The position numbers and the translations under genes are program-made. The notes under the pieces are model-generated. The model was given only the letters and a program-made list of their open reading frames with translations, searched no databases and was not told where the DNA came from. This document shows, in pieces, positions 5,554-24,841 of a stretch of DNA of 64,000 bases (position 1 is the stretch's first letter; every line of letters begins with the position of its first letter). The stretch spans positions 1-64,000 of the forward strand of contig JACQXX010000060.1 of assembly GCA_016208495.1 (NCBI GenBank). Direction: 5' to 3'. Origin of the DNA: Acidobacteriota bacterium. Lineage in GTDB: Bacteria; Acidobacteriota; Blastocatellia; Chloracidobacteriales; Chloracidobacteriaceae.

Positions 5554-6537
5554 ATGGCCGATCACTTCACCGAAAAAGTCAAAACCAAAGCGCTTGAACT
5601 GGGATTTACCAAAGTCAGCATCGCGGAGGCAGTTGAACTTACTGAAGAAAGCGCACGCCTGCGCGAATGGCTACAACTCGGATATCACGCCACGATGGGC
5701 TGGATGGAGCGCACGGTTGACCGACGCAGTGACCCACGGCTGTTCTTTCCCGAAGTCAAATCGGTGATTGTGGTCGCACTCAATTATTTTCAACCACACC
5801 AGCGTTCGGAAGATCCTCAAATTGGAAAAGTCTCGCGCTATGCCTGGGGGGACGATTACCACGACGTACTCACTGACAAACTGCAGCAGTTGCTGGCCTG
5901 GATGGAGCAAGAAAATCCTGAAGTTCGTGGAAAAATCTGCGTAGATGCCCAACCAGCCATGGATAAAGTCTGGGCCGTTCGGGCTGGTTTGGGATGGATT
6001 GGCAAACACAGCAACCTGATCACCATGGATCACGGATCCTGGGTTTTTCTTGGCGAATTGATGGTGAACCTGCCTCTGGAAAGCACGTCCAAACCGATTC
6101 CGGACCACTGTGGAAGCTGTACCGCCTGCCTCGATGCCTGCCCAACTGAGGCCATTGTCCAACCGTATGTGGTGGACGCCCGGAAGTGCATTTCATTTGC
6201 CACGATTGAATCGAAAGAAGATTCCTTGAATCTACCTACCGAAGGCTGGATTTTTGGGTGTGATATCTGTCAAGATGTGTGCCCGTGGTCGCGATTCTCC
6301 CGACCAACCTCTGAATCCCGCTTTTCCCCGCACGAAGATTTTCAGGCACCTGACCTGGCCCTATGGCAGCACCTGACGCCAGAGGACTTTGCCCGCAAGT
6401 TTACCGGATCGCCAATCAAACGTGCGAAGTACCGGGGGCTGCAGCGCAATATCGCCCACGTACAGTCACGATTGAGCGAAACGAAACCGGATGCCCCCCA
6501 GCCGGTTCCTGGTTGTGTACCTGAAACTGAAAAGTAA
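5554..6537 (+). CDS. queG: Epoxyqueuosine reductase
   Basis: QueG reduces epoxyqueuosine to queuosine in tRNA wobble position 34, using cobalamin and two [4Fe-4S] clusters in the cytosol. The 327-residue length is near normal. The cluster-binding motifs CGSCTACLDACP and CDICQDVCPW are intact. The central region has the expected RYAWGDDYHDVL and GWIGKHSNL segments, in the DUF1730 region that contacts cobalamin. The start at ATG 5554 gives the normal N-terminus. A histidine kinase gene begins 13 bases after its stop, so the two may be co-transcribed, though no functional link is obvious. Confidence 0.95.
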   Translation: MADHFTEKVKTKALELGFTKVSIAEAVELTEESARLREWLQLGYHATMGWMERTVDRRSDPRLFFPEVKSVIVVALNYFQPHQRSEDPQIGKVSRYAWGDDYHDVLTDKLQQLLAWMEQENPEVRGKICVDAQPAMDKVWAVRAGLGWIGKHSNLITMDHGSWVFLGELMVNLPLESTSKPIPDHCGSCTACLDACPTEAIVQPYVVDARKCISFATIESKEDSLNLPTEGWIFGCDICQDVCPWSRFSRPTSESRFSPHEDFQAPDLALWQHLTPEDFARKFTGSPIKRAKYRGLQRNIAHVQSRLSETKPDAPQPVPGCVPETEK

Positions 6538-6550
6538 GGAGGTTTGGCCC

Positions 6551-7819
6551 ATGACGGGAGGAAATCAATCTGTTTCCCAGGCCCGAGCGCTGAAACATCA
6601 ACCACTTCAGACCAAGGACGTGGCAATGCCCCAAGGCGATATCTTTGTCATTGATGACAACCCAATCAATCTCAACTTGCTGGCCCATCTCCTGCGTGAG
6701 CGTGGCTATCAGGTTCGGATTGCGACCAGTGGCCGGCGTGGGATTGTGGCGGTCCGCACTTCAGTTCCGGATCTCATCATGTTGGATATCACCATGCCGG
6801 AGATGAATGGATATGAGGTCTGTGAGCAACTTAAATCAGATGAATTGTTGCGCGATATTCCAGTCATTTTTATCAGTGCTTTGGATGATGCCCTCGATAA
6901 AGTCAAAGCGTTTGAAGTCGGTGGGGTTGACTATGTGACCAAACCCTTTCAAATCGAGGAAGTTCTGGCCCGGATTGAAAATCAGTTGCGGATTTCTCAC
7001 CTCCAGAAAGAACTGCGCGAAACCAATAATCAGCTTGAACGCCAGCGCGCCCAGTTGCTCGAAGCCAATCAGAAACTCAAAGATGTCGAGCAGGCCAAGG
7101 CCGACTTTACGGCCATGCTGGTTCATGACTTGAAATCGCCACTCACCGTTGTCAAAACCATGCTGGACCTGCTCCAGTTTGACGAAATCATCAACCAGGC
7201 AATTGCCGACCAGGGCTTGACGGATGTCATGGTGGCTTCCGAACGCAACGTAGACAAAATTCTCGACCTGATCCAGGAAATCCTTGAGTTTTCGCGCATC
7301 GAATCCCAGAACCTGAGCCTGGATATTGAACCAGTTAGCGTTGAAGGCATTCTCAATGACTGTGTGATCACCACCAGCGTCACTGCACTCCAAAACCACA
7401 TCACCGTTGAAGCCGATATTCAGGAAAACCTGCCGCTGACCCTCGGGGATCGAGTCAAATTGGAGCGCGTGTTTTCAAACCTGCTTTCCAATGCGGTTAA
7501 ATTCACTCCAACCAATGGAAAAATTACCATTGAGGCCCGGCAGATTAACCAGTCTGATTCTTCATCATCAAGTCCGAACCTGATTGCGGTTCACATCAAC
7601 GATACCGGCGAAGGGATTCCAGCGGAAGAAGTTCCCTACGTCTTCGAACCTTACCGCCAGGCCACCAAACGCAAAGGACGTCTGGGTGTTGGACTCGGAT
7701 TAGCCATCGTCAAACGGATTGTCACTGCTCACAAAGGCCAACTGTGTGTTGAAAGCCAGCTTGGGATCGGCAGCCGGTTCACAGTTTTGCTTCCAGTGCT
7801 TTCCGCATTGAGTGACTAG
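6551..7819 (+). CDS. Receiver-histidine kinase hybrid
   Basis: A cytosolic signalling protein of 422 residues. A longer frame opens at 6491 inside queG, but AAGGAGG just before ATG 6551 fixes the start. An N-terminal receiver domain (about residues 27-145) has paired acidic residues IDDN and phospho-acceptor D79 in LDITMP. A short coiled coil follows. Then comes a HisKA domain with H192 in MLVHDLKSPL and a HATPase domain with N-box NLLSNAVKF, DTGEGIP and GLGLAIVKR. No membrane segment is seen. Receiver-first kinases of this type usually take phosphoryl groups from, or are tuned by, another kinase. The partner is not encoded next to it. Confidence 0.92.
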   Translation: MTGGNQSVSQARALKHQPLQTKDVAMPQGDIFVIDDNPINLNLLAHLLRERGYQVRIATSGRRGIVAVRTSVPDLIMLDITMPEMNGYEVCEQLKSDELLRDIPVIFISALDDALDKVKAFEVGGVDYVTKPFQIEEVLARIENQLRISHLQKELRETNNQLERQRAQLLEANQKLKDVEQAKADFTAMLVHDLKSPLTVVKTMLDLLQFDEIINQAIADQGLTDVMVASERNVDKILDLIQEILEFSRIESQNLSLDIEPVSVEGILNDCVITTSVTALQNHITVEADIQENLPLTLGDRVKLERVFSNLLSNAVKFTPTNGKITIEARQINQSDSSSSSPNLIAVHINDTGEGIPAEEVPYVFEPYRQATKRKGRLGVGLGLAIVKRIVTAHKGQLCVESQLGIGSRFTVLLPVLSALSD

Positions 7820-7917: not shown

Positions 7918-10245
7918 ATGTCGTCTGACCACCCTTCGAACCGCACGTATTTTCTGACCTGGATTCTGGCCTTTTTCCTCCCACTGGCTATTGCCACGCT
8001 CAGTATTTTCCACATCACCACTCCGCCAGCCGTTATTCCGACAACGGCACCGCCGACTGAATTTTCAGCCGAACGGGCCATGACACATCTCTGGACCATT
8101 GCCCAGCGTCCGCATCCATCGGGATCTATCGAACACCAGAAAGTCCGTGAATATCTGGTTGCCCAGTTGCAAAACCTTGGGCTTCAAACCGAAGTCCAGG
8201 AAACAACAGCCCTGGTTGACGCCTGGGAGACAGCCGGCACGGTTCACAACATCATTGCCCGACTCCCTGGCACCAACCCAACCAAAGCCGTCATGCTGGC
8301 GGCGCATTATGATTCAGTTCCAACGGGACCCGGGGCCAGCGATGACGGCGCCGGCGTGGCGGGTATCCTTGAAGCCATTCGTGCCTTAAAAAGCAACGGC
8401 CCGCTTCGCAACGATGTCATTGTGCTTTTCACTGACTCTGAAGAACTTGGCCTGCTCGGGGCATCAGCGTTTGTGAAGGAGCACCCCTGGGCTAAAGACG
8501 TCGGCGTAGTGTTTAACTTCGAAGCACGCGGAAATCGTGGGTGTTCGTTGCTGTTTGAGACCAGCGAGCAAAACGGTTGGCTCATGGCGGAAGTAGCCAA
8601 AGCTGGGACCTATACCATTGGAAACTCTTTGTTTTATGAAGTGTATCGCCTCCTGCCAAATGACAGCGATATGACGATGTTTAAGCAAGGAGGCATGATC
8701 GGCTGCAATTTTGCTTTTTCGCAAGGAATTCTGTTTTACCATTCGGCGCTCGATCACCCGGCGTACATTGAACAGCGGAGCCTGCAACACCACGGCGGGT
8801 ATATGCTGAACCTCACCCGGCATTTTGGAACGCTTGACCTGAGTAATCCTCCACGACAGGCAAATGTGGTTTATTTCGAACTTCCCTTTGGAAAACTGAT
8901 CTGGTATTCGCAAATCTGGAATCTCATCTGGTTAGGTGGCTTGATCTTCCTGATACTGGCCGTCGGTGTGATTGGGGTGCGCAACCAGCAGCTTTCCCTG
9001 TCAGGGATGTTCCTTGGAATCCTGGCAATGGTGACAGTGTTGATCCCTCCAGCACTGGTAGTGTGGGGACTGTGGAGTTTGATCTATGCTCTTTCGGCTC
9101 ACTATCAGACATTTTCCTATTTTGAGGATGCCTATCAGCAGCACTGGTATCTCCTTGGATTTACAGCCATTACGGTCGCAATCATTTCATTTCTCTGGAT
9201 GACCGCCAGCCGAAAGGTCTCGTGGCCCAATCTGGCTTATGGGTCGCTGCTCATCTGGACTGTGCTGGCGATTATCACAACCCGATTTTTTCCAGGCGGG
9301 GCGTTTCTGTTCCTGCTCCCAACCCTGACCAGTGCCTTGAGCCTGGGAATTATCTTTTTGCGAAAGTGGGACGATTGGACCACCTGGCAACCTGGGGTGG
9401 TGTTGAGCCTGGGAATGCTTCCGGCGCTGTACTTTATGCCGCCGCTCATTTTGTGTCTGGTAGTAGCGTTGACGCTCAAACTGGCCTGGATTGCCATGAT
9501 TGTGGTTGGGCTGTTGCTTGGGGTATTGCTCCCGCAAATTGGGGTTTTACATCTGACAGTCCCGAACCGGCTTCCCTGGCTGGCACTGGGAGTGGGAATG
9601 TTGTGCCTGATTACGGGTGGTTTAAAAACCAAAATTGACCACGATCACCGCCAGCCAAATATGATTTTTTATGCCTTGAATGCTGACACCAGCCAGGCTT
9701 TCTGGGGTTCAGACCTGAGCCCGGTGGACGATTGGGAACGCCAGTTCCTTAAAGACAATCCAACCCGTCGCACGCTCCCGGATTTTTTCCGGATGAGTTC
9801 AAGTGAATTTCAGGTCAATCCGGCAACCGTGGCGCCAGTCGAACCAGCAACGGTTGAAATTGTTTCCGACGAACGCACAGCCGACTCGCGAAAAGTGCAG
9901 ATCCGGGTGCGATCTCCGCGACTGGCCGAGCGGTTGTTGTTGTATTTCGAAGAAACCGAACTTCGATCCCTGGCCGTCAATGGCAAATCTTTCCAAAAAC
10001 TCCCCAAGTTTCAGACTAAATCTGGCCTGAAGTATAACTTTGACTATGTGGCCCCACCCGCTGAGGGTATCGTGATTGATCTCGAAACTGTTGGAAACAA
10101 TCCCATCAAACTGGCGATTGTGGACCAATCCTTCCGGCTGCCACCACTTCCTGGGTTTATGTTCATCTACCGTACCGAAGAAATGATGCCCAGCATTCGA
10201 AGCCTGACCGATTCGACCTTTGTAGTGAAGACAGTGATGCTTTAG
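7918..10245 (+). CDS. Membrane-bound M28 family metallopeptidase
   Basis: A 775-residue zinc aminopeptidase-like protein. Residues 13-33 form a membrane anchor. The M28 domain follows with zinc ligands in AAHYDSV (H130), SDDGAG (D142), the catalytic SEELG (E175/E176) and a later His in HSALDHP. About eight membrane helices occupy residues 325-575, and a soluble beta-rich C-terminal domain follows. This plan (M28, multi-helix membrane region, C-terminal domain) is that of the ER metallopeptidase ERMP1/Fxna group and its bacterial relatives. The catalytic domain is predicted to face the periplasm. Its substrate is unknown. It follows a heptad repeat with no clear ribosome binding site and has no evident operon partner. 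Confidence 0.9.
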   Translation: MSSDHPSNRTYFLTWILAFFLPLAIATLSIFHITTPPAVIPTTAPPTEFSAERAMTHLWTIAQRPHPSGSIEHQKVREYLVAQLQNLGLQTEVQETTALVDAWETAGTVHNIIARLPGTNPTKAVMLAAHYDSVPTGPGASDDGAGVAGILEAIRALKSNGPLRNDVIVLFTDSEELGLLGASAFVKEHPWAKDVGVVFNFEARGNRGCSLLFETSEQNGWLMAEVAKAGTYTIGNSLFYEVYRLLPNDSDMTMFKQGGMIGCNFAFSQGILFYHSALDHPAYIEQRSLQHHGGYMLNLTRHFGTLDLSNPPRQANVVYFELPFGKLIWYSQIWNLIWLGGLIFLILAVGVIGVRNQQLSLSGMFLGILAMVTVLIPPALVVWGLWSLIYALSAHYQTFSYFEDAYQQHWYLLGFTAITVAIISFLWMTASRKVSWPNLAYGSLLIWTVLAIITTRFFPGGAFLFLLPTLTSALSLGIIFLRKWDDWTTWQPGVVLSLGMLPALYFMPPLILCLVVALTLKLAWIAMIVVGLLLGVLLPQIGVLHLTVPNRLPWLALGVGMLCLITGGLKTKIDHDHRQPNMIFYALNADTSQAFWGSDLSPVDDWERQFLKDNPTRRTLPDFFRMSSSEFQVNPATVAPVEPATVEIVSDERTADSRKVQIRVRSPRLAERLLLYFEETELRSLAVNGKSFQKLPKFQTKSGLKYNFDYVAPPAEGIVIDLETVGNNPIKLAIVDQSFRLPPLPGFMFIYRTEEMMPSIRSLTDSTFVVKTVML

Positions 10246-11973: not shown

Positions 11974-14900
11974 ATGTCTGTAGGCTCACGAATTCTTTTG
12001 GTGACCAGCAATCCAACACTCCCAACTGAATTGCAGCGCACCTGGCCTGAGCATACTGCAATTCAGTTTGAGTCACTCATCCCCAACTCCGCAGGATGGG
12101 CAGTATTATGTCACGGAGATCAACTTGCTGAAGTAATCATCCTTGATCAAGCCTCTTTCAGTCATCAGGACCTGGAATTCAATGAAGAGAATCTGGTTCT
12201 CAAAACCAGGGAGTTGTCAGCGCAATCCGAAGTGATTTGGCTTGGTGATGGTCAGGGGTCGCTCAAAACCCAATTCTTGCAGTCAGGTGCTTTTGCTGTT
12301 CTCTCACCTCCCCATGACTTCGAAGATCTGATTCATTATGCTCACCAAGCAATCAAACTTCATCAATTCAAACAGGATGCTCAAGAAAAGCGGATTTTAA
12401 ATACCTTACTGGACCGGGCCACACGGATTCTGAGTGGACATCAGCCAGACGAGGTTCTTGAGAGTATCTTGCAAGCAATTCAAAGCATTGGGTTTGATCG
12501 GGTTCGACTCTACACGTTTTCAGATGACAAGCAGTATCTGATCGGACAAAAACACATCGGCATGGACGATCAGTTTTTGCACTTATATCGTCGAATTGAT
12601 GACGATCTCTGTATCAACATACTGTACAAAAATAACCAGCCGCAAATCTTCAAGCGGGCAGATGGATACCCAATTGTTTTTGAACCTGATGATGGAAACC
12701 TCTCCGAGTGGGGATGCGTGCTCATGGTTTATCAGGGCAATAAGATTGGCAAAATCTCTGTTGACAATAAGTTGAGCCGCCGCCCAATCCAGAAGAAAGC
12801 GTTGGAATATGTCCAGGGCTTTGCCGAACTGGCGGCGGCGGCGTTCCAAACGATCTGCCTGGTTACCGATGTCAAAACTCGGGTTGAGAACCTCAGCCGG
12901 TTTTTGCAGGTTTCCACCACCGTTATTTCAAGCCTTGAAATGGAAAAAACGTTGACCGCCACTTGCCAATCAGCGGTTCAACTTCTGGGTGTTGACCATA
13001 GCGGCTTTGTGGTTCGTGCTCCAGACGGTACCACAGCCAGAGTGATGGCGGAGTATCCTGGTCAAAACGCAATTGGCAAAGAAATTCGAATTGCCGGAAT
13101 TCAGTTGGAAGAAGATCTGTTTCAGCAAGGTAAAGTAATCAATGTGCCGGATGTGACACAAGCTAAAGAACTTAGAAGCGTTCGGAATCTACTTCTGAGT
13201 CTCGGAGTTCAGTCATTGTTGGTTGTTCCAGTGGTGATTCGAGGCCGCGTGTTTGGTTCTTTAAGTCTTGATTCCACCAACCGAAAGCGCACATTTACCG
13301 ATCATGAAATTGACCTGTGTACGGTGTTTGCCAAACAAGTCGCGATTGCAATTGAAAATGCCCGGCTTTATGAAGAAGCCACTCAGCAAGCGAAGGAAAG
13401 TACTCGACTGCGGGCGAATGCTGAACGTCACCGACAGATGCTTGATGCATTGAATCAGAAACTTTTTTCGATTCAGGCCATTAAGGAATTACCTCGGCTT
13501 CAAAAAGAAACCGTTCGCCTTGCCGCTGAACTCCTGGGATGCAGTGCCGGCGCACTGTTTGTCAACCACCTCCATTCCAGAGAGCTTGAGCTTGTCGCGG
13601 AGTACCAGCTTGGCACACACGTGCTGCAAACCCGGTTGTCACACCAGGAAGGATTGGTTGGAGAAGTGGCCCGGCTGAGAAAAACAGCTTCCACTTCAAA
13701 CTATGCTGAGTGGCCAGAACGCGAAGCTATATTTCAATCCTTTGATTTCCAATCTGCAATGGCTATTCCGCTGATGAGGGCTGGGGAAGTCGAGGAAATC
13801 TTGTTTCTCGGCGATCAAATGCGGAAACGCGATTTCGATCCTATTGAGCAGGAAATACTAGAGCGCTTTGCAGCTCGGGCAGCAATTGAAATGGACACTT
13901 CCAAATTACTGAGCAATGAGCAGCGTATGCTCAGTTATTCAACGCTCTTCTTAAACCTCAGTACCTTTATCCTTACCTCACAGCAGCTTGATCAGATTTT
14001 ACACGCCATTTTAACCGTGATCACTGCCGGGTATGGGCTTGGTTTCAATCGTGCAGCATTGTTTTTAAAAGACGGAAACCATTTAGTTGGAAAAATGGGG
14101 ATTGGGCAATTAACTCGCGAAGAAAATCGGGAGGTTTGGGACAACCTTTCTCATCCACCAGACGCATTTCGGGCTTACCTGGATCAATTACCTACTGAAT
14201 TTGCCCAAACTTCGGTCTTTGAAATCATTGATGGCCTACAATTGCCGATTGACCTCAGTTCTGATGACTGTTTTTCACAACTTATCTCAGAAAAGATCCC
14301 GTATGCCCATCTGGTTCAAAAAGAAGAGCTTGTTCACCTTCCAAAGACTTTTATCCAACATTTGAATCCCTCGGTGGAAGCCATCATCGTACCGCTCAAA
14401 GCTCAGGGAAAAATCCTTGGGCTGATTTATGCGGATAACGAGTTCATTGCCGACCCAATTACCGAAGTTACCCGGGAACTTCTTTTGACCCTGGCTGATA
14501 CGGCAGCCCTGGCGATTCATCGAACCTTGCTCTTTCAGGAAACCGAAGAAGCGAGGCAGCAATTCCAGGACTCTTTGGTTGCCGCGATTGAAGTCAACAC
14601 CGCTCAGGACCCGGTTGATGTGCTCGGAGATGTTGTGGAGCGGATTTTATTTGCCGAACGGGCGTCTCGCGTGGATTTGTTTTTGATTGATCAAGCCACG
14701 AAGGCCGCGCATTTGTTGGTCACGGTTGGAGAAGATCGCGATGATGATTCTTTCGATGAACTGATACGCCCAGAAGGTATCTCAATCCAGGTCTTTGAAG
14801 CAGGTGTTCCACAAATTATTCCGGAGATTGAAAAAGAGCCGCCAGGCCGATTAAATCTGAACCTGCTTGGGTCAACCTCCAAAGCTGCCTTGTGTCTTCC

Positions 14901-17352
14901 TTTTTCCCTCCCAGAGCGCAGAATTGGGGTGGTGTGGATTCTGTATGATTACCCACGCTCTTTCCCAGAATATGAAGTGACGGCACTGCAACACTACATG
15001 AATCTTGCCGCGTTGATATATCAGTTTAAGCGACGGAGCCGCAGGCAGGAAGCCTTGAGACAGGTGTCAGAAGCCCTGGCGAAAGTTCAAAATCTGGCGG
15101 AAACCCGACAACAAATCATTGAAGGCGTAGAAGGCATATTTGAAGCCAGTTCGGCGGTACTCTGGTCATATAATTCAGAACAACAAGCCTTTGACCCGCA
15201 AACCTCCGTAGTGGCTGGAATTTCAGATGAACTCTGGAACAAATTACAAAAATTCCCTCCGCGCCCAGAGGGTATGACAGCGACGATCCTCCAAAGAGGC
15301 TGGGTTGGGATTTCAGTGGTTGACGAGCATCAATATCCTTCGCTGAGTCCAGATATTCAGCAGTTGTTGAAGGAGGTCCAGGCTGTCAGCTTCCAGGGAG
15401 TTGCTCTCAAGGTGGGTGAAGAGATTTTTGGTGTGCTTTATATTAACTCTGACTCAGTTCAAAGCTTTTCCGAGGAAGCTCAACAAATTGCACGCTCTTT
15501 TGCCAGTCAGGCAGCGCTGGCATTGAAGAAAGCCAGATTGATTGAAGAATTGGAAAAAATCAAACAACTGGCTCAACGCATTGCAACCGCCATGACCCAA
15601 AATATTGACTCCACCCTGGAAGCCATTGCAGCGGGTATTCAGGATACACTCCGATGCGATGCCGTTACCCTGTATCCTTATAAAGAAGACGCTGTTGGTT
15701 CACGAACCGGGCGTATCAGCCATACCCCAAAATTTATCGGTGTGCGGAATCCAGACAAATGCGCTCGTCCTTCTGAAGTGACACCAGAATCAACGCTTTC
15801 CCGGATGCTTCACGAATTACCAGCCATCTACCCCGTACCGGATGTTGAACAGGATCCCTTGTTTTATCAGCGCTTTGCCCAGGAAGAAAAAATTCTATCG
15901 TGTGTTGGTATCCGTCTGGAAGTAAATCATCGCATCGTCGGCATTTTATTTGTCAACTATCGCACTCGACATCAATTTACTGACCAGGAGGTTGAAAATA
16001 TTACATGGCTGGCCAATCTGGCGGCCATTGCCATCAGCAATGCACAACTGTTTTATGAGATTGAGCAAGAAGCCAAAATCCTGCAAGCCTTGTACGGCAC
16101 CACAGAACCAACCAGGGGCTCATTGTTGAATCGGACATTTGAGGAAATCGTCAACCAAGCCTGTGAACTCACCAATATTGAGCAGGGGATTATTTATGCG
16201 GACATCCGGCTCGTTGAAGGCGAAAAGACCATCCTCAAAGCGTTCTTTCCCGAATCTGAATTGAGTGAACCTGCGCGACGGAATGCAGTGATTGATTTGC
16301 GAGACCCCAAAATTGGAGTTACCGGTCGTGCAGTGAAAGAGAAAAAAATACAAATCGTGCCAGATGTCTCAGATGATCCTGATTATCGGGAATCTCACCC
16401 GGAAACCAGATCTGAACTGACTATCCCTATCTTTCATGCCGATACCGTGGTTGGAGTGATCAATGTTGAAAGTAACCAAGCTCATTACTTCAAACTCGAA
16501 CATTTATCAATTTTGATCATCTTGGCAGATGTAGCTGCTTTTGCCATCGAAAAAGCAGCCATGACGGAGCAGCTTATTAAAGCTGCAATGAAGGAAGAAA
16601 TCATTAAGGAAAAAGCTCGACATAATCAAATTCTCTCATTGACGTTCGGTGGAATTGCCCATGAGGTAAAGGGTCATAGCATTGCCATCAAAGACAATGT
16701 AGAAGATCTGGTCGAGCGGTTTCGAGAAGGGGAATCCGTCTCTCAACAAGAAATTCTTGAAATTCTTGATCTTACTGAACGACATGCATCATCAATGACC
16801 CACATCGTCAATGATTTTCAATGGTTTGTGCATTCACATCGAGATACAACCGATGAATTTACTGAAACCGTTGATTTGGAAGATTTGATCAAGAGCGCCA
16901 TCAAAGAAACAAAAGATCGTCTAAAAATAGAAGACCCGAATCCTTTACAGGTAAAAACAAAAACTGAAACGTCCATCATTCTTTCTTGCCGAGCTAATTT
17001 GCTTCGCCGAGCTATTATAAGCTTACTCGTAAATGCAGTGGAAGCTATTCAATCCATTAGCAAAGAGCTAAAAGATGGGGACGTTTGGGTTGAATTGGGT
17101 AAAAATCAGAATTCTACTCATTGTGTCATTTCAGTTTTTGATCGAGGTCCCGGCTTCTCTCCCTCGGAAGACCTGTTCGAACCTTTTTTTACAACCAAAG
17201 GTAGTCGGGGGCTAGGACTAGGGCTGGCTATTTGCAAGTTCATTATCGAAGCACATCGAGGAAGTATTGAAGCAGCCAAAAACGAATTGGGAGGCACAGT
17301 TTTCATGGTTACCTTACCAGTCCAACCTTTTTCTACACTCAATCAAAACTGA
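11974..17352 (+). CDS. Giant cytosolic multi-GAF histidine kinase
   Basis: A soluble sensor kinase of 1792 residues with no membrane segment or signal peptide. The first 130 residues look like a degenerate receiver: the acidic pair and conserved Lys are missing, although a VIILDQ strand remains. About eight tandem GAF domains follow (roughly residues 140-1530), joined by short coiled coils such as QVAIAIENARLYEEA. The phosphotransfer region has H1563 in GGIAHEVKGHSIAI, an unusual H-box without the normal Pro. The HATPase domain has LLVNAVEAI, DRGPGFS and GLGLGLAI. It starts after AGAGGTGGCCC. The next gene, a receiver-protease fusion, begins 12 bases after the stop and is the obvious phosphorylation target. 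The ligands of the GAF domains cannot be predicted. Confidence 0.92.
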   Translation: MSVGSRILLVTSNPTLPTELQRTWPEHTAIQFESLIPNSAGWAVLCHGDQLAEVIILDQASFSHQDLEFNEENLVLKTRELSAQSEVIWLGDGQGSLKTQFLQSGAFAVLSPPHDFEDLIHYAHQAIKLHQFKQDAQEKRILNTLLDRATRILSGHQPDEVLESILQAIQSIGFDRVRLYTFSDDKQYLIGQKHIGMDDQFLHLYRRIDDDLCINILYKNNQPQIFKRADGYPIVFEPDDGNLSEWGCVLMVYQGNKIGKISVDNKLSRRPIQKKALEYVQGFAELAAAAFQTICLVTDVKTRVENLSRFLQVSTTVISSLEMEKTLTATCQSAVQLLGVDHSGFVVRAPDGTTARVMAEYPGQNAIGKEIRIAGIQLEEDLFQQGKVINVPDVTQAKELRSVRNLLLSLGVQSLLVVPVVIRGRVFGSLSLDSTNRKRTFTDHEIDLCTVFAKQVAIAIENARLYEEATQQAKESTRLRANAERHRQMLDALNQKLFSIQAIKELPRLQKETVRLAAELLGCSAGALFVNHLHSRELELVAEYQLGTHVLQTRLSHQEGLVGEVARLRKTASTSNYAEWPEREAIFQSFDFQSAMAIPLMRAGEVEEILFLGDQMRKRDFDPIEQEILERFAARAAIEMDTSKLLSNEQRMLSYSTLFLNLSTFILTSQQLDQILHAILTVITAGYGLGFNRAALFLKDGNHLVGKMGIGQLTREENREVWDNLSHPPDAFRAYLDQLPTEFAQTSVFEIIDGLQLPIDLSSDDCFSQLISEKIPYAHLVQKEELVHLPKTFIQHLNPSVEAIIVPLKAQGKILGLIYADNEFIADPITEVTRELLLTLADTAALAIHRTLLFQETEEARQQFQDSLVAAIEVNTAQDPVDVLGDVVERILFAERASRVDLFLIDQATKAAHLLVTVGEDRDDDSFDELIRPEGISIQVFEAGVPQIIPEIEKEPPGRLNLNLLGSTSKAALCLPFSLPERRIGVVWILYDYPRSFPEYEVTALQHYMNLAALIYQFKRRSRRQEALRQVSEALAKVQNLAETRQQIIEGVEGIFEASSAVLWSYNSEQQAFDPQTSVVAGISDELWNKLQKFPPRPEGMTATILQRGWVGISVVDEHQYPSLSPDIQQLLKEVQAVSFQGVALKVGEEIFGVLYINSDSVQSFSEEAQQIARSFASQAALALKKARLIEELEKIKQLAQRIATAMTQNIDSTLEAIAAGIQDTLRCDAVTLYPYKEDAVGSRTGRISHTPKFIGVRNPDKCARPSEVTPESTLSRMLHELPAIYPVPDVEQDPLFYQRFAQEEKILSCVGIRLEVNHRIVGILFVNYRTRHQFTDQEVENITWLANLAAIAISNAQLFYEIEQEAKILQALYGTTEPTRGSLLNRTFEEIVNQACELTNIEQGIIYADIRLVEGEKTILKAFFPESELSEPARRNAVIDLRDPKIGVTGRAVKEKKIQIVPDVSDDPDYRESHPETRSELTIPIFHADTVVGVINVESNQAHYFKLEHLSILIILADVAAFAIEKAAMTEQLIKAAMKEEIIKEKARHNQILSLTFGGIAHEVKGHSIAIKDNVEDLVERFREGESVSQQEILEILDLTERHASSMTHIVNDFQWFVHSHRDTTDEFTETVDLEDLIKSAIKETKDRLKIEDPNPLQVKTKTETSIILSCRANLLRRAIISLLVNAVEAIQSISKELKDGDVWVELGKNQNSTHCVISVFDRGPGFSPSEDLFEPFFTTKGSRGLGLGLAICKFIIEAHRGSIEAAKNELGGTVFMVTLPVQPFSTLNQN

Positions 17353-17364
17353 GGAGAAAACATT

Positions 17365-19698
17365 ATGAGTGACATCACCATTCTAATTGTTGATGATCTG
17401 CCTGATCACCGCAGACCGCTCAGAAGAAGGCTTGAAACCAAGTTGAAAGTTCGTGTTTTGGAAGCTGATGGCCAAAAAGAAGCCTGGGACATTTTACAAG
17501 AACATCACCAGAATATTGCTCTGGTTGTGGTTGATCTTCATATGAAGACAGGTCCTGACGAAGGAACCCAACTTATCGAACAAATTGTCAACTCTGGGAT
17601 GGATTGCCGGATTGGTGTTCGAACCGCTCATGGAAGAATAGATGATCAGGTTCTAAAAACTAGAACTCCAAGAGTTGATTTTTATGCGAAGAAAGATGAT
17701 GGGATTGACTCATTACTTCAATATATTCAATCAGCTATCAATAGTTTACTTGACTTAAAAATTGCTGATCATCAGATAAATCAGAAGCACCAGGTCTTAG
17801 AAAGATTAAAGGAAAGCCAAAACATCCGGTGGACAGTTCTTGAACCCACAACAGATATTTCATCTGACTCTTCCTCTCAGGAAAAAATTGCGATACGGCT
17901 GTTTTTTGAAATGTGCAGTTGGCAATCAGCAAAATTCAGCACTCAGGAAGGTACTTTTTACAAAATCGAGGCAGAGGGAACGCGCCAAACAACCTCAGTT
18001 GGTTCTCCCGCACTCTTTGAGGCAATTCAATATATTGCACTGCCGTCTCCGACTACGGATCTTACAGCTCACGTTGTCGCTGGAACTGAAATTTGGCATC
18101 CCTGTGAAGGTAAATTTCGCATTTTGCCTCTTCCTGCACCATACATTGAGGGCCAGGAGCCAACTTATCAAATGAACCTTGGGGTTTATCTCAAGAATCA
18201 ATTTTTACCGGAGGCAAATGTAAGGATCCAAAAGGAGAGCATCTTTTTTGATGGAGTACCCTGCGCATCTGTTTCTATTATCCCAGTGAGGCACAACCCT
18301 CGGGTTGGAAATCTTGAGATTCTTTCTTCAGTAGAGCTTGAAATCAATGGGAAGTCACAACCAGGTAGTGCTGACCAAAAGTTCCAGCCCAAGATAAACT
18401 CACCGCTACAAACCATTGTTTTAAATTGGGCAAATGCTTTGCGAGGATATACAGCTAAATCGTCATCTCGACTAACCTCAATGGCTATCAATTCCGAATT
18501 TGATGAAACAACAGACACACTTAAAATACCAGATTTGCCTGCCTTACCAACAAAACCAAATTATTGGATTTTTGGGACTCAAAAAGGCATTGAAGCCATT
18601 CAACCACTTCTTGATGAGCGCGGGAAAACTTTTAACGTCGTGCCGTTCATTCTTGGGGAAGGAAGACTCTCGTTCTCAAGTGACCTCTCCGCTGAGGAAA
18701 AAAGAAAGGCGATTCGGGACTTTTTACAGGAACAATCAGGTGAAACGACCAAACCCAATGACCGACCGGATTATGTTCTGCTGGTCGGCAATCATGAAGT
18801 TATCCCTCATTTTCACTTTGTGGAGTATCATTGTCTTGGTGACGGCACGCTCGACAAAAAAACTCGTCAAGAAATTCAAGGAATTCCGATCTTATCCGAT
18901 TCGCAGTATACCTATTTCCCCGAGATCACTGATGATCCAGGCCCTCGCTTTGCCCTGGGACGGTTGCCGTTCAATGACCCTCAAAAACTGAGAGACTTGT
19001 GTGTCAACTATGTTGCAGGAAAGTTTTGCACACAACTTTCCAATCAATGGAGATTTTTTGTTGGCCTGGATCACGTTAAGCCAAATAAATTTCAACGGCA
19101 TATCGAAGACCGAATCAGGCCGCTGGTTGGAAATAATGCTGATTTTCTGTATTTAGATAGTATGGTTGACCCCAACCGTATGGTTGAACTTGCGCTACGG
19201 AATCCCACCCGGTTTGTTACCTATCGGGGTCATGGTTCGTGCATTGAATGGCAAATCAACCCAAGCCTCAAGCCAACTTTTTTCCAAACACGTCATTTAT
19301 CAGAAAAAAACTATGCAGTTCAGGGAGTAATGGGAATCGCCTGTTGTACCAACGCGCTTCGCCTTCATCCAGCAACCCAAGTCACGGGAAACAGCCGGTG
19401 CAATTTGGGCTATTGCAACACTCATCAAGAGCCGTTTGGCTATACCTGGGTCAAGAATCAGCTTTCTCCCTGGTATCTTGGCTCGACTTCTAAGAGCTTT
19501 TCGTTGGCCAACGATGTGTTCCATGAAGAGTTGGTTTGTCAATTGATTAAACCTTCTGTTTCAACCATCGGAAGTGCTTTCCGCTCTGCTTTAATTGAAT
19601 TCTTGAAAACGACTGAGATGGAGGTTCAACCTCATGTCCGTGACAGTGTGGCGATGTACTTATTAATCGGCGACCCAGCCTGGCCACTGCAACGCTAG
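17365..19698 (+). CDS. Response regulator fused to a gingipain-type (C25) caspase-fold protease
   Basis: A 777-residue fusion. Residues 1-125 form a full receiver domain with acidic pair D10/D11, phospho-acceptor D57 (VVVDLHM) and a Lys in FYAKKD. Residues about 170-370 resemble the gingipain pro-region, with a segment FLPEANV...SIIPVRHNPRVGNLEI. Residues about 385-777 form a C25 protease. H623 in YRGHGS and the C660/C661 pair in GIACCTNA are 37-38 residues apart, as in gingipain RgpB (HGS and NCC motifs). The ending LLIGDPAW also fits. There is no signal peptide and no secretion C-terminal domain, so it should act in the cytosol, unlike known gingipains. A good ribosome binding site (GAGGAG) precedes the ATG. 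The preceding kinase is the likely activator. The target proteins are unknown. Confidence 0.88.
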   Translation: MSDITILIVDDLPDHRRPLRRRLETKLKVRVLEADGQKEAWDILQEHHQNIALVVVDLHMKTGPDEGTQLIEQIVNSGMDCRIGVRTAHGRIDDQVLKTRTPRVDFYAKKDDGIDSLLQYIQSAINSLLDLKIADHQINQKHQVLERLKESQNIRWTVLEPTTDISSDSSSQEKIAIRLFFEMCSWQSAKFSTQEGTFYKIEAEGTRQTTSVGSPALFEAIQYIALPSPTTDLTAHVVAGTEIWHPCEGKFRILPLPAPYIEGQEPTYQMNLGVYLKNQFLPEANVRIQKESIFFDGVPCASVSIIPVRHNPRVGNLEILSSVELEINGKSQPGSADQKFQPKINSPLQTIVLNWANALRGYTAKSSSRLTSMAINSEFDETTDTLKIPDLPALPTKPNYWIFGTQKGIEAIQPLLDERGKTFNVVPFILGEGRLSFSSDLSAEEKRKAIRDFLQEQSGETTKPNDRPDYVLLVGNHEVIPHFHFVEYHCLGDGTLDKKTRQEIQGIPILSDSQYTYFPEITDDPGPRFALGRLPFNDPQKLRDLCVNYVAGKFCTQLSNQWRFFVGLDHVKPNKFQRHIEDRIRPLVGNNADFLYLDSMVDPNRMVELALRNPTRFVTYRGHGSCIEWQINPSLKPTFFQTRHLSEKNYAVQGVMGIACCTNALRLHPATQVTGNSRCNLGYCNTHQEPFGYTWVKNQLSPWYLGSTSKSFSLANDVFHEELVCQLIKPSVSTIGSAFRSALIEFLKTTEMEVQPHVRDSVAMYLLIGDPAWPLQR

Positions 19699-19787: not shown

Positions 19788-20522
19788 ATGGCAACCCCGA
19801 TATTAAAAGTTGAAGGTGACATGATGTCAAACCGTTCTTGGCTTGCAGTCGTGCCAGGGGGGGAAATCAATCAAGCTCCGTTGCGTGAACTTTCATATCA
19901 ACCCGACCTGACCGACACTTCACGTGTTTGGATTCGACTCAATTACCAGGTGAAAGGGTTTTGGATCCATTCGAATCACACAACTTCCGACCAAACGATC
20001 CATATTCCAGGCGTGCGAGTAATGGCAACACCGGGCGCTCCCAAGCTGCCGATGGATGTGTTTTCAATTGCCATCCCTCGCAAAAGCCGTGTGTCTCAAG
20101 ATGGACTCCGAGTCGAGGTGCGTCAGCAAACCAGTGTTCCAGGCACGTACCGGATTCCTCCGGAGCCGCCATTTCAACTCGAACGTGAATCTATTCCAGC
20201 AGCTCCGGATCCTGTGATTTACGAGTCTGGAGCGTTCTTCCCTGAGACAGTGGCGGCTTGCGGCAAAGTCTATACTATTGATGGCATGAATCAGGTGGTC
20301 ATTTCTGTTTTTCCAATTGCCTACGCACCTCAACTCGGGCAGTTGATTGTAAGGAATTCCATTCAGGTTTCCCTCCTGTGCTTGAATGGCAGCGCTTACG
20401 CGCTCGACGAAGTGAAATGGCACTCTCCGGCAGTTCAAAGTATCGTCGGATACAATCATACATTTCTTCGGTCTCGATTCTCTGGAACAACCCGGCCAAG
20501 CGGCCCTGTCGCTGCTATCTAA
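19788..20522 (+). CDS. Standalone protein resembling the C25 pro-region
   Basis: The start is ATG 19788, eight bases after AAAGGAG; an upstream TTG in frame is unlikely. The 244 residues have no signal peptide and no catalytic motif. Residues about 145-215 align by eye with the pro-region of the preceding protease. FFPE...IDGMNQVVISVFPIAYAPQLGQL parallels FLPE...FDGVPCASVSIIPVRHNPRVGNL, and both continue into (R/L)xSIQV-like strands ending in NG. It therefore looks like a free C25 pro-domain. In secreted proteases such pro-domains act as folding aids and inhibitors. Here it could restrain the receiver-protease in trans, which is an inference. It lies 89 bp after the protease gene on the same strand. 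Confidence 0.7.
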   Translation: MATPILKVEGDMMSNRSWLAVVPGGEINQAPLRELSYQPDLTDTSRVWIRLNYQVKGFWIHSNHTTSDQTIHIPGVRVMATPGAPKLPMDVFSIAIPRKSRVSQDGLRVEVRQQTSVPGTYRIPPEPPFQLERESIPAAPDPVIYESGAFFPETVAACGKVYTIDGMNQVVISVFPIAYAPQLGQLIVRNSIQVSLLCLNGSAYALDEVKWHSPAVQSIVGYNHTFLRSRFSGTTRPSGPVAAI

Positions 20523-20845
20523 AGGTACACCATCGAGTTATTACCTCAGATTGATCTGCCATTCCTGGTCAGACAGAGGGAATGTGTGTTTCTAAGGCGC
20601 AAATAACCCACACCATAAACACCTGAAGAGAAAAATACCTGTGGTCATTCAATCTATTTTCCGTCTTCATTTTCTCACTAATTTATACAACGGTATCTAA
20701 TACAAACCTTCTTTAAAAAGCTATTTAGTAATTTTATCAACTGAACGAGTTAAATAAAGTCAGCGCCCTATTTCTCCCTGGGGTTTGGATCGCTGAACGT
20801 CCAAACCACCCTTCAACCCATCACCAATACAAGGAGTAATGCAGT
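20523..20845. other. AT-rich gap before the subtilase gene
   Basis: This 323-bp gap holds no gene I can support. It is clearly more AT-rich than its flanks, especially 20635-20760, and lacks the heptad arrays that fill most other gaps. A promoter for the subtilase gene could lie here, separating it from the kinase-protease genes. I cannot assign -35 and -10 boxes reliably. Confidence 0.5.
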
Positions 20846-22234
20846 ATGGCTAAAGTACGTGTGCTTGTTGAAATTACACATTCTCAACCTGAAGCCTTTG
20901 CGGTTCGGGCTAGCTTGTTTGATTCTCCGGTTGACTCAGTCCGGGCAAGTGAAGGTTTATTAACGAATTTGGCTGGCTTTGGACTTGAGGTCACTGATGA
21001 GTTTCCACCGGTCCCCATGTTTGCCGACACTGTGGTTCAAGCGGAAACCGTTGGGTTTTCAGCGTTTGACAGCCCGGAAACAAGCCCTGATGCTGAAGCG
21101 GCATCAGTGGTCGTATCCTGTGAAGTCGAACGGTCCAAGCTTCAGGAACTACAGGCTCAAGCTGGGGTTCAAGTTTGGCCAGATGCCGAGATAACACTTT
21201 TCCCGGATGAATGCTGTTCCTGTAGCCTTGGATTCGAAAGTGATGACACAGAACATCCCTTCGATCTGGCTCGATCAAATGGCGGAACTGACTGCCGCCC
21301 ATTTCGCCCAGGAGTTTCAATCCAGGTCATCCGCCAGTTGCTTTCAGTTGGAGCAGTGTGGAGAGATGGGTTTCGAGGTCAAAATATTGTCGTTGGAATC
21401 GTTGATGAAGGAGTCAACGGCCAGGTATACCCAGTGGTAGGCGGCTTTAGTTCTTCAGGTAGCCCTCGGCCAGGCAGTGCGGCCATTACCAGCCACGGCT
21501 CGATGTGTGCGGCTGATGTATTGGTCGCCGCCCCTGCCGCCAAATTATATGACTACCCGTTTATGCAATCTGCCTACTCTGGAACATCATTGCGCATGTT
21601 TCAGGCAGCACTGGATCAACGCCGTTTGGATGGCACACCTCATATCTTGAACAACAGTTGGGGCTTTCGCTGGGTTTCACAAGCCAGTTCTCCCGCCCAC
21701 CCCAATTGGGATGCCAATCACCCATTTAATCGAAAAGTGCGTGAAGTTGTGGCTTCAGGTGCGGCTGTGTTCTTTGCGGCTGGCAATTGTGGCCAGCAAT
21801 GTCCAAGTGGAAACTGTGTTCCTGGCGAGATCGGCCCAGGAAAATCCATTCTTGGACCAGGCAGTTTAAAGAATGTCATCACTGTCGCCGCTGTTAACAG
21901 CCGGCATGAGCGAATCGGATATTCCTCACAAGGTCCAGGATATTTCACCGCGCAAAAACCCGATATTGCCTCATATTCTCATCTGTTTGGCAATTTTGGC
22001 CCAGGTCGCCCCGGCGGTAACGATCCTCCCTTTGACAACGGCACAAGCGCCGCAACTCCGGTGGCAACAGGTGTTGCCGCGCTTTTAAGAAGTGCGCTGG
22101 GACCAATTCCGCCAGAACAGTTAAAACAGGCTTTGATCCAAAGTGCCATTAATCTTGGCGTACCTGGTTGGGACACGGATACCGGATTTGGAGTCATCAA
22201 TGCTGGCGCTGCCTATGCTCTCTTGCGTCGGTAG
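20846..22234 (+). CDS. Cytosolic subtilisin-like serine protease (S8)
   Basis: A 462-residue subtilase. The catalytic triad is D187 (GIVDEGVNG), H217 (SHGSM) and S401 (DNGTSAATP), with oxyanion Asn N314 (AAGNCG). The spacing fits the S8 family. The Asp motif is DEG instead of the usual DTG/DSG, and HGS replaces HGT. Residues 1-130 form a pro-domain-like region ending VWPDAEITLFPDECC. There is no signal peptide, so the enzyme is predicted to remain in the cytosol. A Cys-rich patch (ECCSC, CGQQCPSGNC) is unusual for a secreted subtilase. The start has AAGGAG upstream. It follows the receiver-C25 protease genes on the same strand and may act below them in one pathway, which is an inference. Confidence 0.9.
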   Translation: MAKVRVLVEITHSQPEAFAVRASLFDSPVDSVRASEGLLTNLAGFGLEVTDEFPPVPMFADTVVQAETVGFSAFDSPETSPDAEAASVVVSCEVERSKLQELQAQAGVQVWPDAEITLFPDECCSCSLGFESDDTEHPFDLARSNGGTDCRPFRPGVSIQVIRQLLSVGAVWRDGFRGQNIVVGIVDEGVNGQVYPVVGGFSSSGSPRPGSAAITSHGSMCAADVLVAAPAAKLYDYPFMQSAYSGTSLRMFQAALDQRRLDGTPHILNNSWGFRWVSQASSPAHPNWDANHPFNRKVREVVASGAAVFFAAGNCGQQCPSGNCVPGEIGPGKSILGPGSLKNVITVAAVNSRHERIGYSSQGPGYFTAQKPDIASYSHLFGNFGPGRPGGNDPPFDNGTSAATPVATGVAALLRSALGPIPPEQLKQALIQSAINLGVPGWDTDTGFGVINAGAAYALLRR

Positions 22235-22360: not shown

Positions 22361-22591
22361 ATGAAATGGTTGGTTTCAACTGTCCCCTCTATTGACCAAA
22401 CTCAAATCCAACACAAACTTGCCCAATGGGATGCAACTTTAGATAACGAGATGCCACCAGTCAAAATGGACACGGGAGAGCAGGTTTTTGAAGTTGAAGG
22501 GCCACCTACTTTACCAGAGTTAGCTTCCCACGATGAGAGCATCGTATCAGTTGCCCCCAATGCGGAAATCGAATTGTTCTCTCGATTCTAA
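22361..22591 (+). CDS. Small protein resembling the subtilase pro-domain
   Basis: A 76-residue protein. GGAGG stands seven bases before ATG 22361, which decides the start over ATG 22355 and the longer frame from 22325. Its sequence parallels the N-terminal region of the preceding subtilase. DNEMPPVKM matches TDEFPPVPM, and FEVEGPPTLPEL...VAPNAEIELF matches CEVERSKLQEL...VWPDAEITLF. It is therefore a free pro-domain (inhibitor I9-like in role). Such proteins can inhibit or fold their cognate subtilase in trans. It sits 126 bp after the protease gene. I do not know a named family for it. Confidence 0.7.
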   Translation: MKWLVSTVPSIDQTQIQHKLAQWDATLDNEMPPVKMDTGEQVFEVEGPPTLPELASHDESIVSVAPNAEIELFSRF

Positions 22592-23539: not shown

Positions 23540-23926
23540 CTATACTGGAAGTCCAAAAGACCCTCGTATCAGTTGACGAATCTGCCGGCATCGCCTCAAT
23601 GCATCTTGAGCCACGGCTTTATTCGCTGAGCTTCCCGGGTATCGAAAAGAGACGGCATACGTTGTCAAAACCCCCAGATCAGTGCTTAATCCACCCCAGG
23701 TTGGTTCAACCGAAAGCACATCGTTCAAAAGTATCAACAAGTTATGAGTTCTTTGAATTGAAAGACCCGCTTCTTCAAGCCGGGCTTTCAGGTATTTTTC
23801 AGCACATTGTTGGGCATGAAAACAAGCAGCGTCGAAATTTGGGCTTTTTCGTGCTCTCAGTTCACGTTGTGCTGACACCCAATCGCCTTCTGCTTTGTCA
23901 ATCCATTCGGTGGTTGTGAGCCTCAT
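23540..23926 (-). CDS. HEPN domain protein (likely toxin partner of MNT)
   Basis: A 128-residue all-helical protein. The start at ATG 23926 follows GGAAAGG and overlaps the end of the MNT gene by 29 bases, a common arrangement in MNT-HEPN toxin-antitoxin pairs. HEPN features are KAEGDWVSAQREL, CFHAQQCAEKYLKA and THNL, with RYPG near the end. The RX4-6H ribonuclease motif of HepT toxins is not evident. RNase activity is therefore uncertain, and the protein could instead be a binding or regulatory HEPN of the PF05168 type. It acts in the cytosol, presumably as a complex with the MNT protein. Confidence 0.85.
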   Translation of the reverse strand: MRLTTTEWIDKAEGDWVSAQRELRARKSPNFDAACFHAQQCAEKYLKARLEEAGLSIQRTHNLLILLNDVLSVEPTWGGLSTDLGVLTTYAVSFRYPGSSANKAVAQDALRRCRQIRQLIRGSFGLPV

Positions 23927-24227
23927 GAAGCACCTTTCCTTGACTGACAATTTCCTCTACAAAACGATCTCCAATGCTGAGACGTGCCTGAATCTGTTGG
24001 GGTGTCCGAACCAATAAATCCACAGCAATTGACGGATTAACCTGGGTAAGAATCTCGGCTGCTTTGAGAAGCGGATGACCTTCAAAAGGCATAACCACCA
24101 GTAAATCCACATCGGAATCCCACCGTGGCTGACCATAGGCGTGAGATCCAAATAAGACGATTTTCTCAGGATGAAACCGCTCAACAATTTGGTCACACAG
24201 ACTTTGAATTTCACGTGTGGAAGTCAT
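23898..24227 (-). CDS. MNT-type nucleotidyltransferase (likely antitoxin)
   Basis: A 109-residue minimal nucleotidyltransferase. AAAGGAG eight bases before ATG 24227 fixes the start; the frame could otherwise be extended into dcd. The catalytic motif is GSHAYGQPRWDSDVDLLVV (GSx10DxD), with AVDLLV as the third acidic strand. In type VII toxin-antitoxin systems such an enzyme AMPylates and silences its HEPN partner. The HEPN gene here overlaps it downstream, which supports that role. It begins 23 bp after the dcd stop, so the two genes are probably on one transcript. Confidence 0.87.
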   Translation of the reverse strand: MTSTREIQSLCDQIVERFHPEKIVLFGSHAYGQPRWDSDVDLLVVMPFEGHPLLKAAEILTQVNPSIAVDLLVRTPQQIQARLSIGDRFVEEIVSQGKVLHEAHNHRMD

Positions 24228-24250
24228 TACCGCTTCTCCTTTGCTTACAT

Positions 24251-24841
24251 TCAGACTTTCGCCAGCGTTAGCCCCTGCTGGTCCTGGTACTTGCCGGAGC
24301 GGTCCTGGTACGACGTGGAGCATTCTTCGTCAGATTCAAAGAAAATAATCTGGACAAAGCCTTCTTCGGCATAGAGCCGCACCGGAAGGTTGGCGGCATT
24401 ATAGAGTTCGACTACCAAACGGCCACGCCAGTTAGCCTCCAGTGGTGTTGTATTTACAATTAGTCCGCAGCGTGCATACGTCGATTTCCCAAGAGCAAGA
24501 GCAGTAACATTCCGTGGCATATGAAAGCGTTCAATCGTCACACCCAATGCGTAGGAATGCGGCGGCAACAGCCAATAATTTGAACCATCGGTGTCTTTGC
24601 GGAGTGGAATATCCAAAAGACTGCTCGAATCAAAGTTCTTCGGGTCAATTTCCGTTCCCTGAATTGGGGAAAACACTTTAAACTCATCTTTTGCCAGCCG
24701 GCAGTCATACCCGTAACTCGACAACCCGCAACTAATCACTTTGCGGTCTTCAACCTGGCGAATCAGTTTTGATTCAAATGGGGTAATAAGTTGGTTCTCT
24801 TCGCACATCCGAAGAATCCAGCGATCTGATTTGATAGCCAC
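24251..24841 (-). CDS. dcd: dCTP deaminase
   Basis: A 196-residue enzyme of the usual Dcd length. It deaminates dCTP to dUTP as a step toward dTTP in the cytosol. Family motifs are SSYGYDCRL, the Arg/Ser segment GKSTYARCG and the catalytic Glu in TPLEANWRGRLVVELYN. The end GKYQDQQGLTLA is typical of the nucleotide-binding C-terminus. Whether it is mono- or bifunctional (dCTP to dUMP) cannot be decided here. It is the first gene of a minus-strand run with MNT and HEPN genes. dCTP deaminases are also known as anti-phage nucleotide depleters, but this copy looks like the housekeeping enzyme. Confidence 0.95.
   Translation of the reverse strand: MAIKSDRWILRMCEENQLITPFESKLIRQVEDRKVISCGLSSYGYDCRLAKDEFKVFSPIQGTEIDPKNFDSSSLLDIPLRKDTDGSNYWLLPPHSYALGVTIERFHMPRNVTALALGKSTYARCGLIVNTTPLEANWRGRLVVELYNAANLPVRLYAEEGFVQIIFFESDEECSTSYQDRSGKYQDQQGLTLAKV

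Follow-up and report, generated by a model that had tools for sequence, protein, structure and literature searches.

The open reading frame at 19788–20522 of the window, by which we mean the whole 64,000-nucleotide stretch analysed here, encodes, as judged from its sequence, a stand-alone C25 (gingipain) pro-domain of 244 amino acids. This lies directly downstream of a gene that fuses a receiver, a second C25 pro-domain and a C25 catalytic domain. We consider the chances even that the 244-aa protein exerts its action in trans, on a C25 protease of the cytosol, with the adjacent fusion as the likeliest target; by analogy with known pro-domains, a role as trans-inhibitor is plausible. The relevant genes are as follows.

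11974–17352, + strand: GAF-array histidine kinase, soluble (Pfam: GAF in 7 stretches, GAF_2 in 8 stretches, HATPase_c at 8.8e-18)
17365–19698, + strand: fusion of receiver, C25 pro-domain and C25 catalytic domain, 777 aa (Pfam)
19788–20522, + strand: free-standing C25 pro-domain, 244 aa, without catalytic domain or signal peptide (Propeptide_C25)
20846–22234, + strand: S8 subtilase of 462 aa that bears a pro-like N-domain but no signal peptide (Peptidase_S8 at 1.3e-27)
22361–22591, + strand: free-standing subtilisin-pro-domain-like protein, 76 aa (homolog in genome G251, AF2 model, VIA-align)

The gaps between these five genes are, from 5' to 3', 12, 89, 323 and 126 nt. A scan for promoters and terminators returned counts no higher than in shuffled sequence and gave no information on operon limits.

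The reading frame of the 244-aa protein begins with an ATG at 19788, is preceded by AAAGGAG and ends with a stop at 20522; codon use scored positive for this frame, and all five others scored negative. The protein matched the Pfam family Propeptide_C25 (PF08126) with 24.9 bits (1.2e-5; curated cut-off 22), and a search of its own genome with the PF08126 profile likewise gave 25 bits. The protein has no other Pfam domain, no C25 dyad and no C25 catalytic domain, which bears out the original prediction that a catalytic motif is absent, and NCBIfam gave no match. The closest solved structure by sequence was the Kgp propeptide 5mun, which matched the 244-aa protein weakly (E 0.032) and the fusion at E 4.4e-5; an AlphaFold model of the 244-aa protein, computed from a two-row alignment with the pro-region of the fusion, reached a pLDDT of 28.5. 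The candidate region for a loop that would enter the active site, bounded by the "..YRI" and "..VIY" strands, was kept in the pro-domain alignments, and the hydrophobic N-terminus that forms the export signal of secreted PF08126 members was missing from both the 244-aa protein and the fusion. The end of the chain falls near the domain boundary. Since the chain holds no C25 catalytic domain and no C25 remnant was found 3' of the ORF (20481–20845; best E 0.12), we describe the protein as a C25 pro-domain and not as a propeptide in the strict sense.

Pfam recognised three domains in the adjacent fusion: Response_reg at residues 6–102 (8.8e-11, 42.4 bits), Propeptide_C25 at residues 171–336 (36.5 bits, 3.6e-9, above the curated cut-off) and Peptidase_C25 at residues 442–774 (2.7e-17, 63.5 bits against a cut-off of 23). 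Both the phospho-acceptor Asp, D57, and the conserved Lys, K109, are there in the receiver. The His/Cys catalytic dyad is represented by H623 and C660, which fall in the conserved GHG and Cys columns when other C25s are aligned, so an enzyme to control appears to exist. The fusion has no strongly hydrophobic stretch and no signal peptide, and the maximum hydrophobic average of the N-terminal 60 residues was low in all four proteins examined at the locus, which thus look cytosolic. In the kinase gene, Pfam gave no match to HisKA, and reading by eye located an H-box-like AHE at 1562 together with N and G boxes; with its 7–8 GAF stretches this is a sensor of unusual length, apparently soluble. 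Further upstream in the window lie another signalling gene, a receiver-HisKA-HATPase hybrid (6491–7819), and another protease gene, an M28 peptidase (7918–10245) whose C-terminal half looks membrane-type by eye.

A scan of genome contigs with the fusion as query revealed no relative, and its C25 domain matched 4 of 162 genomes of the class and 3 of 392 genomes of the phylum, the own genome being counted in both. No receiver was found in the flanks of the matches L037 and L107; among the other matches, the G231 contig ends at the start of the frame, and L038 and L039 are open at the 5' end. Neither the fusion nor the 244-aa protein had a match in the plasmid collection or in PADLOC. In the literature searched, no report was found of a receiver with a C25 protease as its fused output, and the main texts of two papers on conflict systems, as far as available, contained neither "C25" nor "gingipain" (PMC7159879, PMC8195603).

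Comparison of the two pro-domains of the window revealed homology beyond chance at the sequence level. The original prediction had noted parallel motifs at similar spacing, and these were recovered: FFPE at residue 150 and SVFPIAYAPQLGQL at 173 in the 244-aa protein (spacing 23), and FLPE at 280 and SIIPVRHNPRVGNL at 304 in the fusion (spacing 24). BLASTP between the two proteins gave 37/160 identities with E 1e-6, and the local alignment scored 101, whereas shuffled sequences averaged 33 and none of 1000 reached 101. The similar region had been placed at residues 140–215; the similarity holds, but its true extent is wider, as the alignment covers residues 15–220 of the 244-aa protein. The relationship is not a close one. 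The two pro-domains share 23% identity, and the 244-aa protein gave z-scores of 16.8, 16.0 and 15.4 to three other C25 pro-domains versus 12.7 to that of the fusion; it is therefore no recent copy of the latter. A tree built from 35 pro-domains grouped the fusion with the C25 of genome G228 (94/93) and left the 244-aa protein on a long branch of unresolved position; a sister pairing of the window's two pro-domains turned up in 0% of 200 bootstrap replicates. A recent duplication of the fusion's pro-domain as the source of the 244-aa protein was ruled out by the identity and the tree. An old common origin of the two may nonetheless hold, since an AU test that forced them together (with one duplicate row, L075b, left out) did not reject the pairing (p-AU 0.337).

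The 244-aa protein is also exceptional within its own family. The PF08126 profile matched 51 of 396 phylum genomes in 77 rows by our count, and only six of these rows fell in frames shorter than 500 aa. Three of the six (G052, G025 and G150) were cut by contig ends, two (G276 and G311) scored below the cut-off, and the sixth was the 244-aa protein, which is thus the only match above the Pfam cut-off, among 77 matches in 396 genomes, in a short frame not cut by a contig end. With the 244-aa protein as a BLAST query, 31 of the 396 genomes gave matches. Most of the 30 matched ORFs that were extracted start with a hydrophobic leader as read by eye; this set includes a few probable chance matches (e.g. 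L021) and some frames on the wrong strand. No orthologous locus that pairs a C25 protease with a stand-alone pro-domain was found among the 396 phylum genomes searched with the pro-domain, or among the 162 class and 392 phylum genomes searched with the C25 domain of the fusion. In the own genome, PF08126 occurred at two sites only, both in the window.

The most serious alternative is that the 244-aa protein is a remnant of a second C25 protease which has lost its catalytic domain and is still translated but functionless. Its occurrence in a single genome of the 396 fits such a remnant, as does the fact that it is as similar to the pro-domains of ordinary C25 enzymes, which look secreted, as to the fusion's. 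However, no C25 trace follows downstream, the frame is unbroken and preceded by a good ribosome site, codon use looks coding in that frame alone, and the chain ends near a domain boundary and has no signal peptide; all this argues against decay, and the same layout is found, and conserved, at the S8 neighbour. We therefore regard the remnant as unlikely, though it is the alternative that survives best.

The S8 neighbour offers a second pair of a protease and a small protein, one that recurs in a further family within the phylum. The S8 subtilase of the window is identical to that of genome G251 at 276 of 448 positions, and D187, H217 and S401, which we take to be the catalytic triad, are invariant between the two. 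The 76-aa protein has a homolog in G251 (E 1.4e-8), which begins 26 nt past the stop codon of the G251 S8 gene. No C25 gene was seen among the ORFs listed for L104, a 10-kb region that contains the G251 pair, so the S8 pair appears to be independent of C25 genes. Genome G442 contains an S8 with the same pro-like N-domain and C-terminal repeats of the "WSGWESLGGVC" type (L089, 4939–7326); no small pro-like ORF was seen beside it in the ORF list for L089 3500–9500. Downstream of the pair in the window, on the - strand, a gene for a HEPN-domain protein overlaps a nucleotidyltransferase gene (23540–24323), resembling an MNT/HEPN toxin-antitoxin pair, and a dCTP deaminase-like gene (24251–24841) adjoins it.

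The link between the small protein and the N-domain of the S8 protease was most evident in the G251 copies. The G251 small protein aligned with the N-domain of the G251 S8 with a score of 66, reached by none of 2000 shuffles, and none of 2000 shuffles matched its score with the N-domain of the window S8 either. Within the window, BLASTP between the 76-aa protein and the S8 gave no match, and shuffle tests were marginal (27/2000 and 6/2000); in a further one, 9 of the 1582 scores reported from 2000 shuffles equalled or exceeded the real score. The 76-aa protein against the G251 N-domain was not significant (333/2000). Profile comparison with hhalign supported the relationship at P 8e-6 over 28 columns only, and neither the window nor the G251 small protein matched any Pfam family up to E 10, the subtilase propeptide and I9 families included. 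The AlphaFold (AF2) model of the 76-aa protein, with a pLDDT of 85.1, takes the fold of a subtilisin propeptide: when 997 chains were re-aligned with this model by VIA-align, rows 1–6 were subtilisin propeptide chains or complexes (Z 8.8–7.4) and row 7 was the inhibitor POIA1 bound to subtilisin (Z 7.3). The margin for this fold is small, since the first unrelated row followed at Z 7.0, and the Foldseek list was mixed, with an isomerase first (E 3.4e-3) and POIA1 third. From the G251 copies, the profile comparison and the modelled fold together, we infer that the 76-aa protein is homologous to the S8 N-domain. The locus thus presents two unrelated, apparently cytosolic proteases, each beside a free-standing copy of its own pro-domain, which suggests dedicated inhibitors in the cell.

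How a trans-acting 244-aa protein might work can be outlined in three steps. Given its adjacency and the intact receiver residues, the GAF-rich kinase would phosphorylate the receiver of the fusion. The resulting change in the receiver, perhaps together with self-cleavage, would uncover the active site by displacing the fusion's own pro-domain. The stand-alone pro-domain would then bind and reversibly inhibit the freed C25 catalytic domain, which would create a threshold and soak up activity that has leaked through. For the last step, the gingipains serve as a precedent and the S8 pair next door as a parallel. According to PMC3677877, isolated gingipain propeptides inhibit their own enzymes in trans, with Ki values of 12 nM for RgpB and 2.04 uM for Kgp, and a propeptide loop entering the active site is described in PMC13366090. 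SUB1-ProM, a subtilisin propeptide that stands alone and whose gene lies next to SUB genes, is reported to inhibit strongly although its sequence has little similarity to the cognate propeptide (PMC6993865).

In addition to these precedents, the S8 neighbour with its like arrangement, kept as a pair in a second family, and the intact frame with coding-like codon use speak for the action of the 244-aa protein in trans. Against it, the fusion already has a pro-domain in cis, and the 244-aa protein is equally close or closer to other C25 pro-domains. Moreover, the available text of PMC3677877 reports gingipain propeptides to be selective for the cognate enzyme though 20–22% identical to each other, and the 23% identity of the window's pro-domains counts against the trans reading for that reason. 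Of the original prediction, the free-standing C25 pro-region beside its protease is upheld by Pfam, BLASTP and the shuffles; its description as antitoxin-like found no direct support. A wider proposal, that the locus is a kinase-gated intracellular module in which the receiver-fused C25 and the S8 subtilase each have a dedicated free-standing inhibitor that arose in evolution from, or in parallel with, their own pro-domain, is more tentative, and we would put it forward as a possibility only.

Two further readings of the 244-aa protein are improbable. As a folding helper it would template the C25 domain in trans, inhibition being a by-product; propeptides are commonly required for protease folding, including that of most subtilases (as stated in the part of PMC6993865 consulted), but the fusion carries its own pro-domain in cis and a second one is not obviously needed for that purpose. 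Slightly less probable still is another target, either a C25 protease of foreign origin or the cytosolic C25 that contig C158 encodes without a pro-domain: the own genome has two C25 catalytic domains (PF01364), the fusion's and one on C158 without signal peptide or Pfam pro-domain, and the 244-aa protein shows no special closeness to the pro-domain of the fusion, but the gene neighbourhood favours the fusion and nothing ties C158 to the window contig. The C25 gene on C158 stands in a three-gene stretch (L087, 2239–9616) with genes for a CHAT + SIR2_2 protein, in which PADLOC detected a ThsA-like SIR2, and an nSTAND1-WD40 protein; the stretch looks like a conflict- or defence-type operon with an intracellular C25.

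Among known systems, the gingipain propeptide, N-terminal in the RgpB and Kgp precursors, belongs to the same family, PF08126, as the 244-aa protein, which scores above the Pfam cut-off, and its isolated form has the inhibitory activity in trans noted above (PMC3677877, available text). It is part of a secreted precursor, whereas the 244-aa protein has its own gene and no signal peptide, and, unlike in gingipains, adjoins a cytosolic receiver-protease with a second pro-domain. Pro-domains encoded apart from a protease and acting as inhibitors are exemplified by MEROPS I29 (CTLA-2alpha, crammer, BCPI), whose members inhibit papain-like proteases (PMC4089206). These are eukaryotic and target C1, whereas the candidate target here is C25. 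Their fold and protease clan are unrelated to those of the C25 system. SUB1-ProM of Plasmodium and POIA1 are closer to the neighbouring pair, as the modelled fold of the 76-aa protein is that of POIA1 and of subtilisin propeptides; they are S8 inhibitors in eukaryotes (POIA1 presumably being of eukaryotic origin), and the C25 pro-domain is of a different family. Unlike those systems, the bacterial locus holds one protease/pro-domain pair of each kind, C25 and S8. For the fusion, a counterpart is PorX of the T9SS, a response regulator whose receiver is fused to a hydrolase and not to a DNA-binding domain; a receiver with an enzyme output is shared, and the output of the fusion is a C25 protease with a pro-domain.

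For papain-like and subtilisin-like proteases, stand-alone pro-domain inhibitors are thus already on record, chiefly from eukaryotes, and in the literature searched no report was found of a stand-alone propeptide inhibitor for clan CD family C25. If the 244-aa protein inhibits in trans, it would be a natural inhibitor of a gingipain-type enzyme, encoded by a gene of its own, and the fusion would represent a response regulator with proteolysis, not transcription, as its output. The kinase-gated module of two pairs, if true, would be the first to show an inhibitor gene of the C25 propeptide type and a gingipain-type protease under the control of a two-component receiver, and it would point to a general bacterial route to protease inhibitors. 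With two unrelated protease/pro-domain pairs side by side, the idea is directly testable with four proteins. The locus is a variation on a known theme, that of pro-domains turned inhibitors, a comparison weakened by the lack of an orthologous C25 pair in the genomes searched and strengthened by the second, independent pair.
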